A stretch of DNA of 27,086 nt, from IMG/VR virus record IMGVR_UViG_3300045260_000021, positions 1 to 27,086 of that record, one strand, 5' to 3'. The position numbers were made by a program, and so were the translations under genes. Within the stretch, counting starts at the first letter, position 1. Each line of letters starts with the position of its first letter. Origin of the DNA: a virus. Below, in pieces: positions 14,214 to 27,086 of this stretch. The notes beneath the pieces are model-generated. The model had not been told where the DNA came from. It was given only the letters and a program-made list of their open reading frames with translations, and did no database searches.

Positions 14214-15479
14214 ATGAATCAACAAATTATAACGACTGATGCAGCGCACTCATCGGTTATGGGGGGCTCAACCGCTGAGCGTCGCATAATGTGTAAAGGC
14301 TCGCTGTTGGCGGAATGGGGTAAACCCGATACTGGAGGCGATAATAGCTATGCGAATGAGGGCACCGCGCTTCATGCCGCCATGGAATTTGTTCTGGATG
14401 TTAGTCCCGAGGTGCTCATTCCGACGGATGAAGATGCCCGTACGGTTATTGGTCAAAAATTCAATAACATAGAAATAACCGTCGAACTTTATAACGAAAA
14501 AATAGCCCCCGCGCTGCGCGCATTTGCCGATATCATTGAGCAATATGATATCGTTGACTATCTACTCGAAATTAGGGGCGGCATCCCCGAAATACCGGGC
14601 GCCTTTGGCACCATTGATATTTTGGGCTTATGTCGATCAGGGGCCATTGCGGTGCTAGATTGGAAATTTGGCGATGGGATCTATGTTGACGCGGTTGGTA
14701 GTTATCAATTGCGGTTTTATGCGGGCTGTGCACTTTTCACCGATTCAGCGGATGTTATTGAATTTATTGACGATAATCCTGAATGGGGCGTGGACTTTAA
14801 CGGTAAAATTATTGCAGGCATTATCCAACCGAGGAGAGGGCGCGATGAGGACGTTTGGCGCATATGGGAGATTAGTGAAAAGGATATTTTTGATTTTATA
14901 GATTTATGTAAAGACGCGGTTTCCACAGCGGTAGCGGCTAACCCCCCATTTCGCGCAGGGCCGCATTGTTGGAAATGTCGTAACGAGCTAACGTGTGAGG
15001 AGCGCCAAAAAATAATAGGCGGCATAGATCCGAAGATAAAACCTGAGCAGATGGACGTTGCGGCGTTAGCGGCGGCACTGCATAAGGCTAATCAAATCGA
15101 GAGCTGGATAAAAACGCTGCGAGCGTACGCACATAAAGAAGCGGAGCGAGGCGTCAAAATACCCGGATATAAACTTGTCGATAAAAGGGCGACCCGCGTT
15201 TATAGCGACGAAGAAAAAGCCAAGGGCGTACTGATGCGCCAGTTGAAGAAAAGCGGGGCGTATACAGAAAAATTGATAAGCCCGGCGCAAGCCGAGAAAA
15301 AACTAGGAAAAGCTAAATATAACAAACTCTTAGCGAAATATACGCAGTATGTTTCATCAGGTACAACGCTTGCTGACGAGCACGATAAACGTCAAGAAAT
15401 ATCGACGGAGAACCGGCTAGAAAATGTAGAATCATTATTAAAACAGTCGACACACCCTAGCTTATTTGATACAAAGTAA
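14214..15479 (+). CDS. DUF2800-type RecB-like (PD-(D/E)XK) nuclease with probable Fe-S cluster
   Basis: A 421-residue nuclease of the phage DUF2800 group, related to RecB/Cas4/AddB exonucleases, probably acting in recombination or end resection. Motifs: GGSTAERRIMCKGS at the N-terminus, GTALHAAMEFVL, the catalytic core GTIDIL (D135) and LDWKFGDG (D149-x-K151), followed by YQLRFYAGCAL. The C-terminal part has HCWKCRNELTCEER with C252, C255, C261. Together with C27 these give the C...CxxC...C set that holds a 4Fe-4S cluster in related enzymes. After about residue 265 there is a long charged helical tail. It starts 9 bases after the RHH gene. Confidence 0.82.
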   Translation: MNQQIITTDAAHSSVMGGSTAERRIMCKGSLLAEWGKPDTGGDNSYANEGTALHAAMEFVLDVSPEVLIPTDEDARTVIGQKFNNIEITVELYNEKIAPALRAFADIIEQYDIVDYLLEIRGGIPEIPGAFGTIDILGLCRSGAIAVLDWKFGDGIYVDAVGSYQLRFYAGCALFTDSADVIEFIDDNPEWGVDFNGKIIAGIIQPRRGRDEDVWRIWEISEKDIFDFIDLCKDAVSTAVAANPPFRAGPHCWKCRNELTCEERQKIIGGIDPKIKPEQMDVAALAAALHKANQIESWIKTLRAYAHKEAERGVKIPGYKLVDKRATRVYSDEEKAKGVLMRQLKKSGAYTEKLISPAQAEKKLGKAKYNKLLAKYTQYVSSGTTLADEHDKRQEISTENRLENVESLLKQSTHPSLFDTK

Positions 15480-17504: not shown

Positions 17505-17700
17505 AATGCTAGTTAATGGGTTTTACATAGAGCAGCGTAATTTACGTGGACAGTGGGTAGAAATAGGCTATGGCGGTGATAAGGATACACAGGCGAAATT
17601 ACGGTTTAAAAACATGCTGAATCATCGCCGTGCAACGGGTAACACCGTGCCCATGCGTCTAGTGTATCGCAAAATAGAAATAATTGAAGAGGATACTTAA
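17497..17700 (+). CDS. Small basic hypothetical protein
   Basis: A 67-residue protein, MSRMLVNGFYIEQRNLRGQWVEIGYGGDKDTQAKLRFKNML..., with two N-terminal strands, a Gly turn, a basic helix and a final strand RLVYRKIEIIEED. This could be a small alpha/beta fold that binds nucleic acid, but no family is recognised. AGGA lies 9 bases before the ATG; it ends one base before the polymerase ATG. Confidence 0.6.
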   Translation: MSRMLVNGFYIEQRNLRGQWVEIGYGGDKDTQAKLRFKNMLNHRRATGNTVPMRLVYRKIEIIEEDT

Positions 17701-17701
17701 C

Positions 17702-19834
17702 ATGCTCCATTGTGATTTTGAAACGCGGTCGTTTTGTAATCTGCTCATCAATGGCGGTTATAACTATGCGATGCATCCAACCACACAGGCGACTATGCTT
17801 GCGTTTGTTTTTGATGAGGATCCTGACCCCGAAATATGGATACCGCTTGAGGGCGCGTTTTGGGATGCATTACGCGCTGCCCTTGCGGATAATGGATATA
17901 TCGTTCACAAACATTTCCCGCAATCTATTATCCACTATATAAAAGGTGGCGGCATGATCGCCGCGCACAACGCCCAATTCGAACGCCTCATATTTGATTA
18001 CATTGTATGCCCCGATTTTAACGTAGAAAACATACCCTTAGAATCATGGTATTGCACTGCAACTCAGGCGCGGGTTAATAATATGCCTGCGACGTTAGAA
18101 GGGTGCGCACAAGCGTTAGGCGGCGAACAGCAAAAAGATTTTCGGGGTAAAAATCTCATTCAAATTTTATGTATCCCGCACGAAAATAAAGAAACCGGTG
18201 AAATGGAATTTGTCGAAGACTTAGAATCGTATATAGAATTCGCTGAATATTGTATACAAGACGTACGCACAGAGCGCAGTATATCTAACGCAATGCGGGC
18301 GCTCACAGATGCGGAGCTTGACGACTATGTCGCCAGTGAAATCGTTAACGATGCCGGACTGTTGATCGATAGGGAACTCGCAGAAGCCGCCGTGCAATAC
18401 GCAGACACCGAGCAGCTCGAATGTATGTTAGAAATTTATCGCCTTACAGATAACACCATCGATAAATGCCGAGGCAAACGATTAACTAATTGGGTTTTTG
18501 TGCGGCTTGATGACGACCAGCAAAAACATATGTATAAATATAAAAACGGCGAGCTTAAATTAACGCTCGACAGAAACGCGCGAGAACGTATTTTGCTAGA
18601 TCCCTCTATTGCGCAAACTGTCCGTGATGTTGTTGAGTTTTCGGATTTTGCGCAAGCATCTAGCACTGGCAAATTTAAAGCCATGACACACCGCGCTGAC
18701 TCCGAAGATGATCGCGTCAGAGGGGCCTATATTTTCAGCGGCGCGGCATCTACGGGGCGCTACTCGTCAAGAGGTTTGCAGTTACACAACTTCCCACGCG
18801 ATGCGCTAAAAGATCCTGACGCCGTCGCGGATATGGTGTGTGATGGCTATACTGTTGACAGCATTGAAAAAGCCGCTGGCCACAGTCTTATGCAAACGCT
18901 AAAACGGTTGTTGCGTCATTCGATTGTTGCGGACGACGGATACACATTTGTGTGCGGCGACTGGGGGCAGGTGGAAGGCCGTATGTTGCCGTGGCTATCC
19001 ATCGGCACGTCACCCGCTACTGATGTTTTTGCGCAACAGAAATTGGACGCGTATGCTAATCAAACGCACGAAAATGATGTTTATTGCCAAACGGCCAGCC
19101 AAATTTTTAACCGCAAAATATTACGCGATGGTGGTAAAGACGCTGAGGCTGATAGACAAATAGGCAAGGTGGCAGAGCTTAGCTTGGGGTTCGGCGGCGG
19201 TATCGGTGCGTTTCAATCCATGGCAGTTAATTATGGCGTCCATGTAACCGATGAGCGCGCCGACGAAATAAAATTCGCTTGGCGAGCTGCTAATCCGTGG
19301 GCACAGCCATTTTGGAATGCTTTACATAAAGCGGCCTGTACGGCAGTGCGTACGCCTGGCTATACCTTTTCAGCGGGCCGTGTGCAGTTTATGTACCACC
19401 CCGATTTACTTATGGGTGCGCTCCTGTGCTTACTCCCCTCGGGCCGCTTACTGACTTATCCTAAAGCCCGTTGCGAAATGGCTGACGGTAAATATGGCCC
19501 GCAATGGCAGCTATCCGCACTAAAAAGTAATTGGAAACCCAAAGCCGATGAAAAAGAGTGGCCGCGTGTCGCGCTATGGCCCGGTCTTATCGCCGAAAAC
19601 GTCACTCAGGCGGAATGTGCAACATTACTGCGCCAGGCGATAACGCGACTGGTTTTTGATCATAATGCGCCGCTTGTAGGCCATACTCATGATGAATTGC
19701 TGCTAGAAGTCCGCGAAGCTGAAACTGACTATTGGCGAGATTTACTAAATAGCGTTATGCTGAATAGTGAAGATTGGGCCAAGGGCTTGCCTTTAGACGC
19801 CGACATCTGGACTGGCCCTAATTTTCGTAAATAA
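17702..19834 (+). CDS. Family A DNA polymerase with 3'-5' exonuclease
   Basis: Replicative polymerase of the phage; 710 residues. The exonuclease domain has D5-x-E7 in HCDFETRS (Exo I), HNAQFE with N90 (Exo II) and Y183-x3-D187 in YCIQDVR (Exo III), so proofreading looks intact. The polymerase domain has motif A DWGQVEGR (D420 to R427), motif B RQIGKVAELSLGFGGG (R485, K489, F497-G498) and motif C GHTHDELLLEV (H663, D664, E665). All key residues are present. The start at 17702 is chosen over 17684 because GAGG lies 9 bases upstream. A strong terminator follows. Confidence 0.93.
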   Translation: MLHCDFETRSFCNLLINGGYNYAMHPTTQATMLAFVFDEDPDPEIWIPLEGAFWDALRAALADNGYIVHKHFPQSIIHYIKGGGMIAAHNAQFERLIFDYIVCPDFNVENIPLESWYCTATQARVNNMPATLEGCAQALGGEQQKDFRGKNLIQILCIPHENKETGEMEFVEDLESYIEFAEYCIQDVRTERSISNAMRALTDAELDDYVASEIVNDAGLLIDRELAEAAVQYADTEQLECMLEIYRLTDNTIDKCRGKRLTNWVFVRLDDDQQKHMYKYKNGELKLTLDRNARERILLDPSIAQTVRDVVEFSDFAQASSTGKFKAMTHRADSEDDRVRGAYIFSGAASTGRYSSRGLQLHNFPRDALKDPDAVADMVCDGYTVDSIEKAAGHSLMQTLKRLLRHSIVADDGYTFVCGDWGQVEGRMLPWLSIGTSPATDVFAQQKLDAYANQTHENDVYCQTASQIFNRKILRDGGKDAEADRQIGKVAELSLGFGGGIGAFQSMAVNYGVHVTDERADEIKFAWRAANPWAQPFWNALHKAACTAVRTPGYTFSAGRVQFMYHPDLLMGALLCLLPSGRLLTYPKARCEMADGKYGPQWQLSALKSNWKPKADEKEWPRVALWPGLIAENVTQAECATLLRQAITRLVFDHNAPLVGHTHDELLLEVREAETDYWRDLLNSVMLNSEDWAKGLPLDADIWTGPNFRK

Positions 19835-19901: not shown

Positions 19902-22124
19902 TTGGAGTCTAACATAACCCCCGTCGAATTTGTAACCGCTATATATCGGGATTTACCTGAAAACGAATTTGTATGTCTCGCTAAACCCTCGAATACGGGT
20001 TTTACGCACTATCCGGGCTCGACCCGTCGCTTAAAAAAGGCCGAAAGCCACCCTCAAGAATACTATATTTGTGTAAGCACCGTCGCCGCCGCTGACCCGC
20101 TACGCCGCCGTAAGCAGGATTGCCGGTGCGTTTATGTGCTCATGCTCGATGATATCGGTACCAAAGCCAAAGCGCCCGAACTGGCGCCCAGTGCCATTTT
20201 AGAAACGTCTGAGGGCAATTATCAGTACCTCTATTTTTTAGAACCTTATGAGCTTAGCAACTCCGGGGATATCGATTATTTCGAAGCCTGTAACCGCGCG
20301 GTTGTTAATGCGGGTTACGGCGATACCGGCTCACAGGGCGTTAACCGTATTTATCGGTTACCCGCTAGCGTTAACACCAAAGAGGGACGCGGACAATGGC
20401 AGACTACTGTCACCTATTGGCAGCCGAATAGATGTTGGGAACTCAGTAAACTCATGGACGCGTTAGAACTAGATCCTGTCTATAAAGAGGACCGTTTTGA
20501 CGGTGTTACCGGCAAAGAATATGTCGGTGACGTTCCTGACGGTTTTAGCGATAGCGTGCTAGATTGGCTACAGGAACAGGGGTTATTGGGGGAGCGTCGG
20601 TCTGATTTTTTTGACATAAAATGCCCATGGTCGGACCAGCATACTACGGGCAATGACACCGCCGGCTACTCCCCGCTGGGCGTTGGGCCTATGAAACTGC
20701 TACGCGGCTTTAACTGTTTTCACGGTCACTGCGCGCACCGCACCGCCAATGATTTTCTTGCGTGGGTGCAGAGCGAAGGGGGGCCAGGCGCGCTAGCCAG
20801 TGGCATTAGCGAAATTGAGGCAGAGCGCCTACGTGAGGAAAAACGGCGGCTTACTCAGCCCGAACGCATTGCGGTACTCTATGCCTCGCTGCCGCCCGTT
20901 TACCGCACGAACCTGCCCGATGTCGCGTATACGGCTAACGGTAATGTCGCGGGCGCGCAACGTCCGACGCGGCCTAATGTGCAGTACTTAATTGATACTC
21001 TTGGCGTGCAAGCGCGCATGGATATGCAAGAGCACAAAGTTGAGTATTCGTTTCGCGATGATGCTATTTCGGAATTTATCGACCATCCAGACGAAATAGA
21101 GCGCGTGGTGCTTGATGCAGGGCAGCGGTGCGGGCTTGGGGGTGTGTCAACCGAGCTTCTGCGCATATCGCAAGAGATGGCGCTCAATGATAAATATCAT
21201 CCGATGGCCGAATGGATTGCGTCCAAGCCGTGGGATAAAAATGACAGATTTATACCTCTGGCTAATAGTGTACATGTGGATAGCATTTATGCGGATGTGT
21301 GGCCGCGTTACCTAAAACGGTGGCTCATCCAAGGGGTGCAGGCCGTCATGGGGTGGCAAAATCCTCAGCAAATGCGCGGGTGTGTTGTATTTGCGGGAGA
21401 CCAAGAAATCGGTAAGTCCCGCTGGTTTGCATCACTCGTGCCTGATGAATATTTTTTAGAGGGCGCTCACATAGAGTTGCAAGGGGGTGCAGCAAAAGAT
21501 TCCATTATGCAAACTACGGCGTACCCTATCGTTGAACTAGGGGAACTCGAAACAACGTTCGGAAAATCAGCTACCGGTCAGTTAAAAGCGTTTTTAGCGA
21601 TGAAAAAAGACGTCTACCGGGCGCCCTATGACACTAAGCCGCGATCATGGCCGAGATGTACGATATTTTGTGGCACGGTTAACCGCATGGATTTTTTAGT
21701 CGATGAAACGGGGTCTACGCGATTTTGGCCGGTGTGGGTTGATCAGGTTAATCCTCAGCATGGTATTGATATGCAACAGCTCTGGGCTCAGGTTTACAGC
21801 TGGTGGCGATCAGGGGAAACGTGGTGGCTGGATGAGGCGGAGAGTGCAACGCGTGCGCAGCAAGCTGAAGAGTTTGAGGTTACGACGGATGTTAAAGAGG
21901 CGTTGGTCGAATGGCTTAAGACACATAAGTGGCCGGGCAATGCGATGAATGTAACTAACATCGCTAAAATATTGGACGTTAATACCACTAAGCAAAATCT
22001 CTCACAGTTACGCGTGTTGCTCACACGGTATTTGGGTAAGCCGAAACGCCAACTTGACGGCGTCGCTAACGCTTGGGATGTGCCAACCACTAACGGTAAA
22101 AACGTAAAATTTGACGCGCTGTAG
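19902..22124 (+). CDS. Primase-helicase, VapE / P4-type
   Basis: Bifunctional replication initiator of 740 residues. Residues 1-200 resemble an archaeo-eukaryotic primase: CVYVLMLDDIGTKA supplies the Asp pair, ETSEGNYQYLYFLEP, then GSQGVNRIYRLPASVNTK. A zinc-binding segment (C241, then C272, H274/H276 and C277) follows. The C-terminal part is a VapE-type SF3-like helicase: Walker A GDQEIGKS (499-506), ELGELETTFGKSATGQLKAFL, DVYRAPY, and FCGTVNRMDFLVDETGSTRFWPV with the sensor/Arg region. The start is TTG, supported by GGAGG exactly 7 bases upstream and no better ATG. P4 alpha-type proteins of this layout can prime, unwind and bind iterons, which makes the iteron region at 25.6-25.9 kb a candidate target. 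Confidence 0.88.
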   Translation: MESNITPVEFVTAIYRDLPENEFVCLAKPSNTGFTHYPGSTRRLKKAESHPQEYYICVSTVAAADPLRRRKQDCRCVYVLMLDDIGTKAKAPELAPSAILETSEGNYQYLYFLEPYELSNSGDIDYFEACNRAVVNAGYGDTGSQGVNRIYRLPASVNTKEGRGQWQTTVTYWQPNRCWELSKLMDALELDPVYKEDRFDGVTGKEYVGDVPDGFSDSVLDWLQEQGLLGERRSDFFDIKCPWSDQHTTGNDTAGYSPLGVGPMKLLRGFNCFHGHCAHRTANDFLAWVQSEGGPGALASGISEIEAERLREEKRRLTQPERIAVLYASLPPVYRTNLPDVAYTANGNVAGAQRPTRPNVQYLIDTLGVQARMDMQEHKVEYSFRDDAISEFIDHPDEIERVVLDAGQRCGLGGVSTELLRISQEMALNDKYHPMAEWIASKPWDKNDRFIPLANSVHVDSIYADVWPRYLKRWLIQGVQAVMGWQNPQQMRGCVVFAGDQEIGKSRWFASLVPDEYFLEGAHIELQGGAAKDSIMQTTAYPIVELGELETTFGKSATGQLKAFLAMKKDVYRAPYDTKPRSWPRCTIFCGTVNRMDFLVDETGSTRFWPVWVDQVNPQHGIDMQQLWAQVYSWWRSGETWWLDEAESATRAQQAEEFEVTTDVKEALVEWLKTHKWPGNAMNVTNIAKILDVNTTKQNLSQLRVLLTRYLGKPKRQLDGVANAWDVPTTNGKNVKFDAL

Positions 22125-22169
22125 CTTGCAACGCTAAAAGTCTTTATAGAATTTTTCGATAAAATCATA

Positions 22170-22197
22170 AGCGCGGCATCGCCGCGCTGTATTTTTT
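22170..22197 (+). terminator. Terminator between convergent modules
   Basis: A perfect 8-bp stem (AGCGCGGC / GCCGCGCT) with a 3-base loop, then GTA and six T residues. It ends the rightward replication block two bases before the end of the leftward accessory block. The minus side has only a weak T tract, so it probably acts mainly rightward. Confidence 0.88.
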
Positions 22198-22199
22198 CA

Positions 22200-22652
22200 C
22201 TAACACGCAATGTAATTGAGTGTTGCTGATCCGCTGTACACATTCATGAACGTAGGCATGTCGCCCAGATGTTCTACATCCAACATTACAAATATTTCTA
22301 GGGGCGCCCCGCATTCGGAGATTAACGTGTCATCACTCTCGGCCATATACCCTGTGGTATTTGCATACAAATAAGCCGTCTCATTGAGTGTAAGCGCCGC
22401 GTAACCTGTATCAATAAACACTGATCCGGCTACGGCAATATCGCTGATAACCGCTTTATAATTAGCAGGGGTTGGCACGCTAACAGCGCATTGCACCTCA
22501 TATTCGATATCGGGATAAATCGATGTTACGTTAAAATTATTAAACGCAATATCAAATGAGCCGTCATTCATCGATAGTTCATAGTTGCATGCGGCGGAGG
22601 CGTTAAGGCAGGTAAAAAATGTGAGAAATAAAAACATTGATATCAATTTCAT
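22200..22652 (-). CDS. Secreted protein with four cysteines
   Basis: A 150-residue precursor: a signal peptide (MKLISMFLFLTFFTCLNASA, cleavage likely after ASA) followed by ACNYELSMNDGSFDIAF... The mature chain is beta-rich and has four Cys (in ACNYEL, VQCAVS, SECGAP and the terminal YIAC), fitting two disulfides in the periplasm or outside. The layout loosely recalls pilus or spore-coat-U-like secreted beta proteins, but I cannot assign it. The ATG at 22682 is rejected since GGAG lies 5 bases before 22652. The gene follows the LuxR-type gene in the same direction, so it may be regulated with it and act on the host surface. Confidence 0.75.
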   Translation of the reverse strand: MKLISMFLFLTFFTCLNASAACNYELSMNDGSFDIAFNNFNVTSIYPDIEYEVQCAVSVPTPANYKAVISDIAVAGSVFIDTGYAALTLNETAYLYANTTGYMAESDDTLISECGAPLEIFVMLDVEHLGDMPTFMNVYSGSATLNYIAC

Positions 22653-22706
22653 AGTCACTCCGATAGGTTTAGGATTGAGCACTATACCTTAAACATCAGA
22701 GTGACT
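22653..22706 (-). promoter_or_regulatory. Inverted repeat that can pair with the ribosome site of the secreted-protein gene
   Basis: AGTCACTC (22653-22660) and GAGTGACT (22699-22706) are perfect 8-bp complements 38 bases apart. In the leftward mRNA the second arm contains GAG of the GGAG ribosome site and runs up to the ATG. A TATAGT -10-like box lies between the arms. Transcripts from upstream could mask the site while transcripts starting between the arms could not. This is an inference from geometry. Confidence 0.4.
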
Positions 22707-22726
22707 GTGAGCCGATATGGCGCCAA

Positions 22727-23536
22727 TTAAATTTCGATTAATCCATGCTTAACCGCTGTATATACTGCCTGAGCGACGGTCTTTGACTGTAGCTGTCTTT
22801 TAACGGCGGCTATATGTTTATTAGCGGTGTCCGAACTTATGCACATAACCTTGCTAGCGTCTTTGAGCAGTAATCCGCGTGTTGCCATAATTTCTAGTAA
22901 TTTCAGTGGTTTATTACCCAGTCGATTGCCACGTACGTAGCGCTTATTTAACACAGGTGTAGGTAACAATCGCGTGCCGAAATGTACGATAGTGTGAGAC
23001 ATCATTGCCATTGCAATTCCGTTTTTTAGCGCACACTCGGCGATAGCGTCGCGGCTTAATCCTTTCGCGTAAAACATTAACAGCGCATTTACGCCGTCAG
23101 AGCGATATACCGAGCAGTACGCGTCGTAGTATTTATGCTGCTCCAGCAATTTAAAATACTGTAGGTCGTCGTCTAGGTGTCGTGTCGTTAAAGGCGCATT
23201 ACGGATATAGTCTGTCAATTTCGACAACATCACATCATCATCGCCATATTTTGCGTGGTCCTTTAGCATATTTAGCGATATAACCTCCTGTTTGCTGATA
23301 AATTCTGCAATATCATTCGGCAGTGTTGTTACGTGTTTTTCGGGTATTGTGTTCAACGTAACAAGGTAAAAATCGGAAAAGCCTAATTTTTTACAGAGAT
23401 GTTGTGTATGTATTTTAAAAGATTCTAGGTCTTTGCAATTTGATAACCGTGCGACAAAATTAAGACTGTTGTCATTTTCGGTGTGGGGGGTTTCGTTCGT
23501 TTCGTTCGTTTCGTTCGTTTCGTTCGTTTCGTTCAT
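22727..23536 (-). CDS. LuxR-type transcription regulator (quorum-sensing receptor-like)
   Basis: A 269-residue protein. After an (NET)5 N-terminal tail (residues 2-16), residues of about 25-190 resemble an autoinducer-binding domain by size and layout (KKLGFSDFYLVTLNTIP, NDIAEFISKQ, AYCSVYRSDGVNALLMFYAKG, a helix of about IAECALKNGIAMAMMSH). Residues 206-269 are a LuxR/GerE helix-turn-helix: KLLEIMATRGLLLKDASKVMCISSDTANKHIAAVKRQL, ending VAQAVYTAVKHGLI. The protein contains no Trp, although AHL receptors conserve two in the ligand pocket, so the ligand is probably different or absent. The ATG has GAGG about 9 bases upstream. It probably controls this accessory block or the lysis-lysogeny choice. 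Confidence 0.8.
   Translation of the reverse strand: MNETNETNETNETNETPHTENDNSLNFVARLSNCKDLESFKIHTQHLCKKLGFSDFYLVTLNTIPEKHVTTLPNDIAEFISKQEVISLNMLKDHAKYGDDDVMLSKLTDYIRNAPLTTRHLDDDLQYFKLLEQHKYYDAYCSVYRSDGVNALLMFYAKGLSRDAIAECALKNGIAMAMMSHTIVHFGTRLLPTPVLNKRYVRGNRLGNKPLKLLEIMATRGLLLKDASKVMCISSDTANKHIAAVKRQLQSKTVAQAVYTAVKHGLIEI
23491..23535 (-). repeat. 9-bp tandem repeat, 5 copies, encoding (NET)5
   Basis: TTTCGTTCG on the plus strand occurs five times in a row, the last copy with one change. It lies at the very start of the LuxR-type gene and encodes Asn-Glu-Thr units. Copy changes keep the frame. Confidence 0.9.
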
Positions 23537-23564
23537 TGTGTTTTCCTCATGGCGTAATTGACAG

Positions 23565-23600
23565 CCGTCAAGTGAGCTGCAACTCGCTTGACGGATTTTT
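23565..23600. other. 12-bp hairpin in the LuxR-gene leader
   Basis: CCGTCAAGTGAG and CTCGCTTGACGG pair over 12 positions with one G-T pair and a six-base loop. A T tract (23596-23600) follows on the plus strand, so it could end rightward (antisense) transcription. In leftward luxR mRNA the same hairpin would sit in the 5' leader about 30 bases before the start codon. Confidence 0.6.
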
Positions 23601-23617
23601 GGTCTACGGATATGTAT

Positions 23618-23646
23618 ATAATCTACCGTGCGTAAATACTATGCAA
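23618..23646 (-). promoter_or_regulatory. Candidate promoter of the LuxR-type gene
   Basis: Minus strand: TTGCAT (23641-23646), 17-bp spacer, GATTAT (23618-23623). Both boxes are imperfect. A dyad with CTACCG (23623-23628) and CGGTAG (23649-23654) arms spans it, so a bound regulator could block or recruit polymerase. Confidence 0.4.
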
Positions 23647-23666
23647 CGCGGTAGGATCCTATATTA
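23647..23666. promoter_or_regulatory. Lux-box-like palindrome next to the LuxR-gene promoter
   Basis: A perfect 10-bp palindrome TAGGATCCTA (23652-23661) lies just upstream of the -35. Its core resembles the centre of the Vibrio fischeri lux box (TAGGATCGTA in ACCTGTAGGATCGTACAGGT). The centre would be about 45 bases from the predicted transcript start, close to the usual lux-box position. The outer arms do not match. Confidence 0.35.
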
Positions 23667-23694
23667 TGCGGTCGTGCCTATGACCGAGTCCCCG

Positions 23695-23967
23695 TTATAT
23701 TTTTATTAAAAGCATTCTATGTGGCGGACAACATCTATCAAGGCGGCCATCGGCGCGCATTAACGGACAGCCATCCCCTGTTAACATACTGCCGTCAGGC
23801 CTAAGCCGTACGTCTAGCATGTAGTGTTCGGTAGTGATATGTAAATGGAGCGTGCCGGTGAATCTATCGCGCTGTATGCAATCACAAGACGCGGGGGTGG
23901 TTTGGTGTGTGAGTTTTAAGAGTCTATCTATATTTTTCTGTTGTGCAGCGTTTAACGTGATAATCAT
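23695..23967 (-). CDS. Cys-rich hypothetical protein
   Basis: A 90-residue protein with a helical N-terminus (LNAAQQKNIDRLLKLTHQT), a CDC motif near residue 29, a strand pair (TGTLHLHITTEHYMLDVRLRPDGSML), then GCPLMRADGRLDRCCPPHRM. Five Cys and several His could bind metal. A GGGAG site lies about 9 bases before the ATG, which supports a real gene. No family recognised. It lies upstream of, and in the same direction as, the LuxR-type gene, with 158 bases between them. Confidence 0.55.
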   Translation of the reverse strand: MIITLNAAQQKNIDRLLKLTHQTTPASCDCIQRDRFTGTLHLHITTEHYMLDVRLRPDGSMLTGDGCPLMRADGRLDRCCPPHRMLLIKI

Positions 23968-24042
23968 TGGGTGCAGCTCCCAGATAGCCGTCCTTGGCGG
24001 TACAACGTTAACGGTTAGGTGTAGTTGCAGGAATTCACTTAT

Positions 24043-24753
24043 TTAATTACCGTTTGTGAAAATAGCGCCCCCAGTATTAGTGTTTGTAAAATCAGCGTCC
24101 GTAAAATTAGCGTCCGTAAAATTAGCGCCCGTAAAATCAGCGTTCGTAAAATTAGCGCCCGTAAAATTAGCGCCCGTAAAATTAGCGCCCGTAAAATTAG
24201 CGCCGTAGCAGTTGGCATATCGTAAATCAGCGCCCGTAAAATCAGCGCCGGTAAAATTAGCGCCCGTAAAATCAGCGCCGTAGCAGTTGGCATATTGTAA
24301 ATCAGCGCCCGTAAAATTAGCGCCCGTAAAATCAGCGTCGTAGTAGTTGGCATATCGTAAATCAGCGCCCGTAAAATTAGCGCCGGTAAAATTAGCGCCC
24401 GTAAAATCAGCGTCGTAGCAGTTGGCATATCGTAAATCAGCGCCCGTAAAATTAGCGCCGGTAAAATTAGCGCCGGTAAAATCAGCGCCGTAGCAGTTGG
24501 CATGTCGTAAATCAGCGCCCGTAAAATTAGCGCCGGTAAAAATTGCCTCACGTAAATCCATTTTACGAAGCGTTAAACCTGATAAATCCGTATTGGCAAA
24601 ATTAAGATCACGCGCATTAATTTTTTCGTCGAGTTGAGCCTGGCTAAATTTTTTACTGGGTGTACTGGGTGTACCGGGTGCACTAGGGGATACTTCGATA
24701 CCTAGCGCGGTGGTATCACTATAACGCTCATCATTTGATTGTGTGTCGTTCAT
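24043..24753 (-). CDS. Pentapeptide-repeat protein
   Basis: A 236-residue protein. Residues 1-50 are a polar, Ser/Pro-rich tail with a short helix (KKFSQAQLDEKI). From about residue 53 nearly every five residues follow A(D/N)(L/F)xx, mostly ADFTG, ANFTG and ADLRY, through to the end (about 35 repeats), which folds as a right-handed square beta helix. Such helices can mimic DNA and bind gyrase (as in Qnr/MfpA), or act as scaffolds; which applies here is unknown. Several repeats share the longer unit ...ADLRYANCYGADFTGANFTG. GGAG lies about 10 bases before the ATG. Confidence 0.88.
   Translation of the reverse strand: MNDTQSNDERYSDTTALGIEVSPSAPGTPSTPSKKFSQAQLDEKINARDLNFANTDLSGLTLRKMDLREAIFTGANFTGADLRHANCYGADFTGANFTGANFTGADLRYANCYDADFTGANFTGANFTGADLRYANYYDADFTGANFTGADLQYANCYGADFTGANFTGADFTGADLRYANCYGANFTGANFTGANFTGANFTNADFTGANFTDANFTDADFTNTNTGGAIFTNGN
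24205..24514 (-). repeat. Nested superrepeat in the pentapeptide gene
   Basis: The segment GTAGCAGTTGGCATATCGTA (with small changes) recurs at 24205, 24280, 24340, 24415 and 24490, with spacings 75, 60, 75 and 75 bp, all multiples of the 15-bp pentapeptide unit. The regular spacing fits duplication or loss of whole turns. Confidence 0.85.
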
Positions 24754-24769
24754 GTTAAAGGTCTCCAGA

Positions 24770-24961
24770 TTAACAGTTGTTATTGCCAGTGTTGGAAAAT
24801 TTAATGTTGTCAGCGCTAATCTCGGCCGTTTGACGACCTGAGTGCGATAAGAGGATGTAGGTGTAGTGGGCTTTAATGCGTCTTCTATCGTGCAATATCC
24901 AGCCTAAACGCTTTAATACGTCTATTGCGCCTTTCTGGTGGTGGGTCATTATCGTTGTCAT
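24770..24961 (-). CDS. Small hypothetical protein
   Basis: A 63-residue protein, MTTIMTHHQKGAIDVLKRLGWILHDRRRIKAHYTYILLSH..., which looks like one helix plus a strand pair, possibly a very small winged-helix fold, but no family is recognised. GGAG lies about 10 bases before the ATG, in a leader (GGAGACTGCACA) almost the same as that of the primase-helicase gene (GGAGGACTGCAC). The promoter-operator at 24998-25035 lies upstream; it is the first gene of its transcript and the pentapeptide gene follows 16 bases on. Confidence 0.55.
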   Translation of the reverse strand: MTTIMTHHQKGAIDVLKRLGWILHDRRRIKAHYTYILLSHSGRQTAEISADNIKFSNTGNNNC

Positions 24962-24997
24962 TGTGCAGTCTCCGTCGGTTTGCTGAATTACGGGTAT

Positions 24998-25035
24998 ACG
25001 TTATCACGGCTTAATTATGTTAGCAATGTTCTAAC
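24998..25035 (-). promoter_or_regulatory. Promoter with GTTAG-N7-CTAAC operator
   Basis: Minus strand: TTGCTA (25021-25026), 17-bp spacer, TAACGT (24998-25003; weak -10). An inverted repeat GTTAG/CTAAC with a 7-base gap (25019-25035) overlaps the -35. The sequence TTGCTAACATAA...AAGC.GTG is shared with the promoter at 16483, which argues for common control. Confidence 0.5.
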
Positions 25036-25069
25036 CCTGTATTTTTCGAGTTTTAATATCGTATATACA

Positions 25070-25384
25070 CTATTCAATAAATCGTATAAGTGCTTGATTT
25101 ATAACTATAATTTTGCAATATGGATTTTTGATCGATAAATAATCGACGATAAATTTGGGGGTGGAGCCTGCATCTAAGCGCAATAGACGCTCATGTTTTT
25201 TAAGGAGGGGGACATACGCAGCGACTTCATAGGGTTCGGTATTGTGAGGTATACCGGGGGCGTAACGCGCAAAATTCAGCGACACCTTTTTGCCCTCATA
25301 TAGGGTCGCAATTAAGTAGCACCCGTAGCGTCGGACGACAATTGTGTAGTACCCAGTAGCGCATTTTCTAGGCTTTATGTTCAT
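25070..25384 (-). CDS. Hypothetical strand-rich protein
   Basis: A 104-residue basic protein: CATGYYTIVVRRYGCYLIATLYEGKKVSLNFARYAPG gives three or four strands, then PYEVAAYVPLLKKHERLLRLDAG and a C-terminal helix. No family recognised. A CAGG site lies about 9 bases before the ATG, and a TATAAT box sits about 33 bases upstream on the minus strand, although no good -35 was seen. The last leftward gene before the palindrome and iteron region; it may belong to the same control region. Confidence 0.55.
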   Translation of the reverse strand: MNIKPRKCATGYYTIVVRRYGCYLIATLYEGKKVSLNFARYAPGIPHNTEPYEVAAYVPLLKKHERLLRLDAGSTPKFIVDYLSIKNPYCKIIVINQALIRFIE

Positions 25385-25452
25385 AATTTGACCTGTATCA
25401 ATAGTGGATATATCAAATTATAAAAGGGCGGGTGCCTGATTAAAATACATGC

Positions 25453-25540
25453 AATTTAATATATACGAAATTAAAAACAGAATTTTAACTGTATAGATAT
25501 ACAATTAAAATTCTGTTTTTAATTTCGTATATATTAAATT
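25453..25540. repeat. 88-bp near-perfect palindrome
   Basis: The 36 bases at 25453-25488 are the exact reverse complement of 25505-25540. The centre is TGTATA-GA-TATACA, pairing again after one mismatch (C25489 against A25504) and leaving a 2-base centre. The arms are AT-rich with ACAGAATTTTAA inside. Flanking bases do not pair further. It could extrude as a cruciform, or act as a bidirectional terminator since A and T tracts flank an inner stem. Confidence 0.93.
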
Positions 25541-25569
25541 AACTAATTATGTTAGAGGAAAAAGCCGGA

Positions 25570-25944
25570 GTTCGTTGACACTTTTGGGCCGTTCGTTGAC
25601 ACTTTTGGGCCGTTCGTTGACACCAGATTGACACTTTCGAAAAAAAAATTTCCTTATAAATCAATAACTTATTTTATATTATGTAAATGTGTTAATGAAT
25701 TATATATATAGAGTAGTCTGAGAAGTAGTAGTGGTAAGTTGGTTGACCAAACACGCGTTGAGACGCTAAATAGAAAAACCCCGTTCGTTGACACTTCTAT
25801 GCAGAATCAGCCGTAAGTCTTTGATTTATAACGATTTATTTGGTTTTTCGTTCGTTGACAGTTCGTTGACACTTTTGTAAGTCATTGATTTTATTGAAGT
25901 TTTTTTGGCCTAATGTGACTTGGAGTGTCAATCAAGTGTCAATC
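25570..25944. repeat. GTTCGTTGACA iteron array
   Basis: Six exact copies of GTTCGTTGACA begin at 25570, 25591, 25612, 25783, 25850 and 25861. The first two lie in identical 21-bp units (GTTCGTTGACAC plus TTTTGGGCC). A shorter relative, GATTGACACTT, occurs at 25626 and twice inverted (AGTGTCAATC at 25924 and 25935). Spacing of the first three is exactly 21 bp, two helical turns. This arrangement fits binding of one protein to several sites. Confidence 0.9.
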
Positions 25945-25990
25945 TACTTTTTTTAGTTTGCTATTTTCGACGTAAGTTATTGATTTATAA
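25654..25990. repeat. Four copies of TAAGTTATTGATTTATAA
   Basis: An 18-bp sequence occurs inverted at 25654-25671 and, in identical form, direct at 25973-25990. Two variants lie between, at 25814-25831 (TAAGTCTTTGATTTATAA) and 25878-25895 (TAAGTCATTGATTTTATT). The outer pair frames the right half of the iteron array. Confidence 0.85.
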
Positions 25991-26084
25991 GAAAAAAATA
26001 GCATTTTTAGATTTTTCTGCGGTAAAAGCCCCCCGCTGTTGATATACGCGCCATTGCTTGATGCGCACCGGCGCGCTGCTCCCG

Positions 26085-26114
26085 TTGACGCTCCGGCCCC
26101 CTGGCTAATATGAT
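26085..26114 (+). promoter_or_regulatory. Sigma70-type promoter for the right-hand operon
   Basis: TTGACG, 18-bp spacer, TATGAT; both boxes match consensus at five of six positions. A start near 26121 would give a leader of about 35 bases before the GTG at 26155. Confidence 0.65.
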
Positions 26115-26154
26115 ATATCCATTATTAACAGTGGATTGAGCGTAGGGGGTTACA

Positions 26155-26397
26155 GTGTTGTCGGGTGAGCAGATGAGGGCCGCATTAGCGGTTATGCGAT
26201 GGTCGCGAGCGCAGCTAGCCGAGTTGAGCGACGTTAAGGTTGGCACGCTCATGCGGGCGTTAGACGCTGACGGAGTGCCTCCGATGAACGCCCAGTTTTT
26301 AGCAAGCATTCAGCAAGCATTTGAAGCGGGCGACGATAAGGGCAGTATCGAATTTATTTACACGCCGGTACCCGGCATTGTATATCACCAGCGTTAA
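26155..26397 (+). CDS. Small XRE-like helix-turn-helix protein
   Basis: An 80-residue protein: LSGEQMRAALAVMRWSRAQLAELSDVKVGTLMRALDADGVPPMNAQFLASIQQAFEAG then IEFIYTP. This matches the compact HTH type with 'iTgaQiRAARaLLgWsq-eLAe-sgVs--Ti-r-E', usual in phage and plasmid regulators. The GTG at 26155 (or TTG at 26158) is the start, with AGGGGG 5 to 8 bases upstream. It is the first gene behind the strong promoter. It may regulate the adjoining repeat region, but its target is not shown. Confidence 0.68.
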   Translation: MLSGEQMRAALAVMRWSRAQLAELSDVKVGTLMRALDADGVPPMNAQFLASIQQAFEAGDDKGSIEFIYTPVPGIVYHQR

Positions 26398-26400
26398 CCG

Positions 26401-26613
26401 ATGGCCGCTAGAAAACGGCGCCCCAGCATCTCCCCTCTGGGTCGCAAATGCAAACGCCTGTTTTCGCTCACCCCTGAACTCAATTGGGCGCTTGATCAGT
26501 TTGACACGCCCCTGGCGGTTGTTGTTGATGAAGCGCTGTGGGCATGGCTAGATGTTAATGAGCCTGATGCGGCGGAGGCTGCCCGTAAATTACGCGAGGA
26601 CGCCGCCAAATGA
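26401..26613 (+). CDS. Small basic protein, possible regulator
   Basis: A 70-residue protein with a basic N-terminus (MAARKRRPSISPLGRKCKRLFSLTPELN) and an Ala-rich helical C-terminus (DAAEAARKLREDAAK). The middle FDTPLAVVVDEALWAWLDV resembles the helix of small DNA-binding proteins such as ribbon-helix-helix dimers, but the pattern is too short to be sure. It starts 3 bases after the HTH gene, so the two are surely co-transcribed. Confidence 0.55.
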   Translation: MAARKRRPSISPLGRKCKRLFSLTPELNWALDQFDTPLAVVVDEALWAWLDVNEPDAAEAARKLREDAAK

Positions 26614-26708
26614 CCCCTACTGGACGCAACCGCGTAATAAGTACCTCGGCATACCCCCGGTCGTTAAACGCCGTCATACGCGCTGTGATTAGCTCAGAGG
26701 ACCTATTG

Positions 26709-26815
26709 AATATTAGAGATATCTAATATTAGGGGCGTTGTAACCGCCCCGAATACGAGCGGGTATTGCTGCAATATCCGCTCATAACCACACTCCGTTA
26801 TCTTGATAGCGGAGT
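26709..26815. other. Cluster of four inverted repeats before the last gene
   Basis: In order: AATATTAG-N6-CTAATATT (26709-26730); GGGGCG-N7-CGCCCC (26732-26750); a 13-bp arm pair with one G-T pair, GAGCGG ... CCGCTC (26757-26783); and an 11-bp arm pair with one G-T pair, ACTCCG ... CGGAGT (26792-26815). The last two share the same plan of six GC-rich pairs, a wobble, then an AT-rich end. They fit a structured RNA leader or a tandem operator; no T tract for termination follows. Confidence 0.6.
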
Positions 26816-26844
26816 AATACATAAAAACCGCGATTGGAGACTTT

Positions 26845-27086
26845 ATGACAGCCGAACCCGCGTTAAATCCCAAGCATGAAACATGTACCGAAAAAACGAC
26901 ACGTCCACCGCCGGAGGCTATGGATATCAGTATACGCAATGCGCGCAAACTGTACGCCACTATACTCAGAGCCCGCAATGGTTTGCGCGGCGCCATAGAG
27001 CGCAGCAGCTTAGGGGATATTGGTTATTATTTTGGGTGGCTGGATAGTGAGTTAACCAAACTATACGCCGCGTTGCCCGATACTGT
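26845..27086 (+). CDS. Hypothetical protein, 3' end outside window
   Basis: An ORF open at the right edge, 80 residues seen: MTAEPALNPKHETC..., a polar Pro-rich start, then helical MDISIRNARKLYATILRARNGLRGAIERSSLGDIGYYFGWLDSELTKLYAALPD. A GGAG site lies 6 bases before the ATG. Preceded by the hairpin cluster. No family recognised from the part seen. Confidence 0.6.
   Translation, partial: MTAEPALNPKHETCTEKTTRPPPEAMDISIRNARKLYATILRARNGLRGAIERSSLGDIGYYFGWLDSELTKLYAALPDT

Follow-up and report, generated by a model that had tools for sequence, protein, structure and literature searches.

A probable iteron origin of replication in a phage with a VapE-type primase-helicase

PICI origins are built from two sets of iterons that lie 3' of rep with an AT-rich region between them, an architecture described in 2018 as common to no other known replicon and as unique to phage satellites (PMC6092414). 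In SCCmec, Cch2 uses its C-terminal domain to bind repeats located on the 3' side of its gene (PMC7581432), while the alpha protein of P4 is said to bind its repeats via a winged helix and the origin of pRN1 is a stem-loop 3' of the primase-helicase (PMC4234260). The P4 record (NC_001609) has annotations for ori and, 3' of alpha, for crr, with type 1 repeats running both ways. For the NrS-1 PrimPol, the site TTTGGTTA has been defined as a primase recognition sequence on single strands (PMC8718748).

Here we describe an array of short repeats in the viral record IMGVR_UViG_3300045260_000021, a linear, partial record of 27,086 bases that is taken in full (the window). From sequence comparison and structure modelling, we consider it probable that this array is the replication origin of a VapE-helicase phage, bound most likely by the helicase encoded at 19902-22124.

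The repeat array and its setting

The record starts inside what we take, from the list of open reading frames, to be a P22-type coat gene; tail genes follow, then a replication module, and small rightward genes run from the array-bearing gap to the end of the record. The genes and intervals around the array are as follows.

14214-15479: exonuclease-like gene of the replication module
17684-19834: Pol I-type polymerase gene of the replication module
19902-22124, + strand: gene for a RepB-primase and VapE-type helicase of 740 aa (Pfam PF16793, PF05272; related to 7pds by sequence and by the fold of its model)
22200-25384, - strand: leftward gene group between helicase and array, a layout also seen in the relative G018
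25385-26154: divergent intergenic gap of 770 nt, which holds the array
26155-26397: gene for a helix-turn-helix (HTH) protein, the first rightward gene after the gap (weak match to phrog_4779, E=1e-4)

On the 3' side of the helicase gene, 3.4 kb with oppositely oriented genes thus separate it from the array. This leftward group includes a pentapeptide-repeat protein (24043-24753) and a protein encoded at 22727-23536 whose C-terminal end weakly resembles a sigma-factor/HTH family (phrog_3282, E=0.003). Within the gap, the following elements can be told apart.

25453-25540, no strand: AT-rich palindrome of 88 bp beside the array, with 43-bp arms and a 2-bp loop
25570-25634, + strand: left iteron set, three GTTCGTTGACA at 21-bp steps plus GATTGACAC 11 bp further (25628)
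25627-25719, no strand: AT-rich core, the probable melting region; its 80-bp window 25640-25719 is tied as least stable of the record
25649-25671, - strand: second element, TAAGTTATTGATTTATAAG, which fits the IHF consensus
25743-25748, + strand: degenerate iteron TTGACC
25783-25794, + strand: single iteron GTTCGTTGACAC
25814-25831, + strand: second element, copy 2
25850-25872, + strand: two iterons GTTCGTTGACA, 11 bp apart
25878-25896, + strand: second element, copy 3
25925-25942, - strand: two inverted iterons TTGACAC, 11 bp apart (25925-25931, 25936-25942), at the right edge of the array
25973-25991, + strand: second element, copy 4

A sequence-only reading of this DNA had reported six exact repeat copies, three of them at 21-bp spacing, together with degenerate and inverted relatives next to an AT-rich stretch and a palindrome. 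A position scan places exact copies of GTTCGTTGACA, all on the + strand, at 25570, 25591, 25612, 25783, 25850 and 25861, the first three in 21-bp steps and the last two 11 bp apart, and the 21-mer GTTCGTTGACACTTTTGGGCC is repeated perfectly at 25570 and 25591. Between 25570 and 25945 there are ten cores of the form TTGACA or TTGACC, of which the two at the right edge are inverted; the relatives are GATTGACAC at 25628, TTGACC at 25743 and the two TTGACAC on the - strand. These counts are far above expectation for the gap 25385-26154, being reached in none of 500 dinucleotide-preserving shuffles: GTTCGTTGACA occurs six times (shuffle mean 0.0), TTGACAC eight times (mean 0.06, maximum 1) and TTGACA nine times (mean 0.37, maximum 3).

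The iterons flank the AT-rich core (25627-25719) on either side. Windows of 60 bp with at least 83% AT occur in the record only there and in the palindrome region, 25439-25564, and it is also in these two regions that the two 80-bp windows of lowest stability in the 27 kb are found. The palindrome is the only one in the record with arms of at least 18 bp. All the structural claims of the earlier reading are thus borne out. The palindrome itself may be an additional part of the origin, comparable to the stem-loop of pRN1, or possibly a two-way terminator. A telomere (protelomerase) reading of it was considered and rejected; a protelomerase gene was not noted in the record.

The helicase and arrays in related phages

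The protein encoded at 19902-22124 matches 7pds ("similar to D. nodosus vapE") by sequence with E=4e-15, and with 3e-41 in a profile comparison. An AlphaFold model of its C-terminal 399 residues (pLDDT 85) finds its best match in the same entry, SaPI PriRep1 with dsDNA, at a Z of 25.3 over 380 residues, followed by the C-terminal region of NrS-1 (Z 14.6) and the SaPI5 primase-helicase (Z 11.8). The C-terminus is predicted to end in a winged helix, which the order of helices and strands in residues 322-384 fits, and the model suggests that this RepB-primase/VapE helicase is a self-loading initiator resembling PriRep1.

The first lead to arrays in relatives came from three loci (L007, L008, L020), in which two-way arrays begin at the helicase stop codon or right beside it and surround an AT-rich stretch, with repeats that differ from TTGACA (CTGACAAA, CTGACC and GTAACTAC). 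We surveyed 103 VapE-helicase loci from viral and genome collections, falling into 46 clusters at 70% identity, of which 45 were scored; four closer helicases were aligned as the search query, an alignment of seven distant ones being too divergent. A two-way array, defined by a total of at least four heptamer copies, was present within 500 bp of the 3' end of the helicase gene for 16 of the 45 non-redundant relatives, three of which (L047, L048, L020) had prompted the test, leaving 13 without them. The control windows gave 1/38 for the 500 bp 5' of the gene, 7/387 further downstream and 4/335 upstream (the latter two together 11/722), and shuffled sequences gave 0/225.

Arrays displaced by 2-5.6 kb to the 3' side of the helicase, as in this record, were seen in eight further loci (L028, L051, L052, L058, L059, L060, L063, L096). 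The closest syntenic relative, G018/L028, has the exonuclease, the polymerase and most of the helicase length in common with the record, and likewise has oppositely oriented genes between the helicase and a displaced array; the second element is present there too. Closer conservation was not apparent: a DNA-similarity search of phage records with 22000-27086 returned no match, a search of IMG/VR for the exact double-repeat pattern found none, and neither search turned up a close relative that conserves the exact repeat.

Ten short repeats around an AT-rich core here, and comparable arrays past the helicase gene of related phages, most likely mark the place where the helicase loads and copying of the phage DNA begins. 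The similarity of iterons among 24 arrays follows the similarity of the last 95 helicase residues (Mantel r=0.25, p=0.002) more than that of the helicase core (r=0.12, p=0.08), suggesting that repeats track the C-terminal domain, in a modest correlation to which shared ancestry may contribute.

With PICI/SaPI origins (Pri-Rep/PriRep1; PDB 7pds, 7ola) the locus shares short iterons that flank an AT-rich core in two sets, the fold of the initiator helicase (the Z of 25.3 to 7pds), an initiator encoded in the same element and a position 3' of the initiator gene. It differs from them in belonging to a phage that has coat and tail genes of its own, and in its TTGACA repeats, IHF-like second element and palindrome. 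An origin immediately 3' of the initiator gene would be expected of the PICI/SaPI type, whereas 3.4 kb with oppositely oriented genes intervene here, and the arrays of other phage relatives are displaced too; as the array is thus set apart from the gene and its function is putative, we do not formally place it among PICI origins.

The locus resembles P4 crr and ori, both of which are recovered by the array scan used on the relatives, in its short two-way repeats, tandem steps of 9-11 bp, adjoining AT-rich DNA and location 3' of a primase-helicase gene. In P4, however, the repeat is GTGAACAG instead of TTGACA, the primase of alpha is of the TOPRIM type where the protein here has an N-terminal RepB_primase domain, and the second element has no copy. 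Cch2 parallels the proposed arrangement of a C-terminal domain and repeats 3' of the helicase gene, but has only three AAGTG iterons and belongs to a different element with a different partner primase. pRN1 has a large stem-loop, comparable to the palindrome at 25453-25540, 3' of a winged-helix primase-helicase, yet lacks iterons. NrS-1 PrimPol is the second-best fold match to the helicase model, and its 8-nt recognition site is identical to the array repeat of G018/L028; a PDB search with L028 gave no sequence match to NrS-1.

In its architecture the array equals P4 crr/ori and the PICI/SaPI origins, and it would probably work like these and like the systems of Cch2 and pRN1. The C-terminal winged helix of the helicase would bind the TTGACA iterons that flank the core; helicase rings assembled at the array would melt the AT-rich DNA and go on to unwind it. 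Priming would fall to the N-terminal primase domain, and the phage's own Pol I-type polymerase could extend the primers. The second element between the iteron clusters would probably be bound by a bending protein such as IHF, or mark a priming site. The sequence-only reading had proposed an origin of plasmid-like replication, possibly bound by the VapE/P4-type primase-helicase. The initiator part of that proposal gains support from the arrays 3' of the gene in relatives, the PriRep1-like model and the P4 crr/ori layout; "plasmid-like" is apt in the sense of an iteron origin only, and nothing points to plasmid maintenance. A GC-skew check that the same reading had suggested was also run, and is uninformative because the record is partial and the skew is positive on either side of the array, with no switch.

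The second repeat element

The earlier reading missed a second repeat family, TAAGTYNTTGATTTATAA, which alternates with the iteron clusters in four copies. A fifth copy (25087-25115, + strand) has no iterons around it and lies close to the 3' end of a leftward open reading frame, 25070-25384. Together, the five copies match the IHF consensus WATCAANNNNTTR, as putative sites, and make up five of the six exact IHF-consensus sites of the record.

An exact search with the second element retrieved no fewer than 119 viral loci. Some heptamer occurs four or more times within 280 bp of the element in 43 of 113 loci, compared with 16 of 289 control windows, and six or more times in 20 of 113 compared with none of 289; the 113 loci are partly related, forming 71 groups by their flanks, 26 of which have four or more copies. 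The heptamers vary between phages. No VapE-type helicase was detectable by tblastn at the loci of this search. The Prim-Pol/AAA_25 phage family (L150, L163, L185, L198, L215, L235 and relatives) has two-way arrays just before terS; its repeats differ (AGGGTCA, AGGGGCA, AGGTGCA, GTAGGTA) and its second element is identical.

Binding by IHF is the simplest reading of the element's sequence, although a GC-rich counterpart, present in other VapE arrays, does not fit the IHF consensus. Furthermore, IHF-consensus sites without the full motif are surrounded by six or more heptamer copies less often (5/232) than those with it (20/113), which makes a plain IHF reading only partly satisfying. That the element and its GC-rich counterpart form one family is a guess. 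Perhaps TAAGTYATTGATTTATAAG, and with it the GC-rich CAAASCCTTAnccAGnAAGGGTTT, is a module common to a broad class of phage origins, constant in sequence while the surrounding iterons vary and found with unrelated initiators (VapE type, and Prim-Pol with a RecA-like helicase); it would then be a docking site for a common factor (IHF or primase), an idea that we put forward tentatively and hold to be somewhat less likely than not.

Competing readings and implications

Some points speak against an origin: the 3.4 kb to the helicase gene; a strict 3' position of the array in no more than 16 of the 45 relatives, three of them the loci that prompted the test; the predominance of one repeat direction, with just two copies inverted; the lack of a close relative that conserves this exact repeat; a GC skew that does not switch at the array; and the situation in a divergent gap near a possible Cro-like gene, towards the packaging genes. 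The last of these bears on a packaging initiation site of the pac or cosB type, in which the small terminase would bind the repeats and IHF would bend the DNA between them. Lambda cosB and P1 pac likewise consist of short repeats plus IHF-like sites. We weighed this reading because the second-element-bearing Prim-Pol/AAA_25 family has its arrays 119-407 bp before terS; the layout of the window is P22-like, and the record probably runs into terS near its end, the gene itself lying beyond. In VapE phages with helicase-side arrays, however, the small terminase is at distances of ~0.85 kb (G001), 2.4 kb (G002), 3 kb (G019, G039) and 8.3 kb (G026), and 3.4-4.8 kb separate the displaced arrays of G024 and G030 from the large terminase. 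Arrays that track the helicase gene, repeats that covary with its C-terminal domain and an AT-rich core, unexpected at a packaging site, further make packaging an unlikely function.

The array also fills a divergent gap whose next rightward gene, at 26155-26397, weakly matches phage transcriptional regulators, and TTGACA is also a -35 box, so that the repeats could serve a repressor or early regulator, for instance this HTH protein, as operators. Ten direct and inverted, non-palindromic sites in 11- and 21-bp steps around an AT-rich core look instead like iterons, a search among them for a sigma-70-type promoter found none, and the arrays of relatives track the helicase gene, which together render operators quite improbable. 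That the second element recurs beside different repeats in phages lacking a VapE helicase could point to an origin bound by another, unseen initiator, encoded for instance in the missing part of the genome; the association of arrays with VapE genes, and of their repeats with the VapE C-terminal domain, leaves this only a slender chance. Arm-type integrase sites with IHF sites between them look similar to the array, and the array scan also picks the attP arms of P4, but a phage attachment site is very unlikely here, since the partial 27-kb record has no integrase, nor have G018 or G016, and the integrases of G020, G021, G024, G025 and G030 lie 17-24 kb from the arrays. Ends of a Tn7- or Mu-like transposon, considered on account of the repeated TTGACA sites, were rejected; a scan of the ten proteins at 19902-27084 turned up no transposase.

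The array is most likely an origin served by the VapE-type helicase, of a kind already known but in a setting that has seen little description. It would extend a layout called unique to phage satellites (PMC6092414) to VapE-helicase phages with their own structural genes, and offers a search rule for further cases, namely short two-way repeats around an AT-rich core, either 3' of a VapE gene or a few kb further on. It leads us, moreover, to expect that the winged-helix end of VapE-type helicases sets the repeat sequence. VapE, named for virulence, looks here like a replication initiator.

Repeats of other kinds were seen in the surveyed loci as well. Tandem 14-bp repeats, ATTTGTCGCGCTCC, lie near the array of G018 (L029:15040-15110), and two related viral contigs contain 36-bp tandem repeats that are probably coding (L035:6776-7660, L043:10170-11020).
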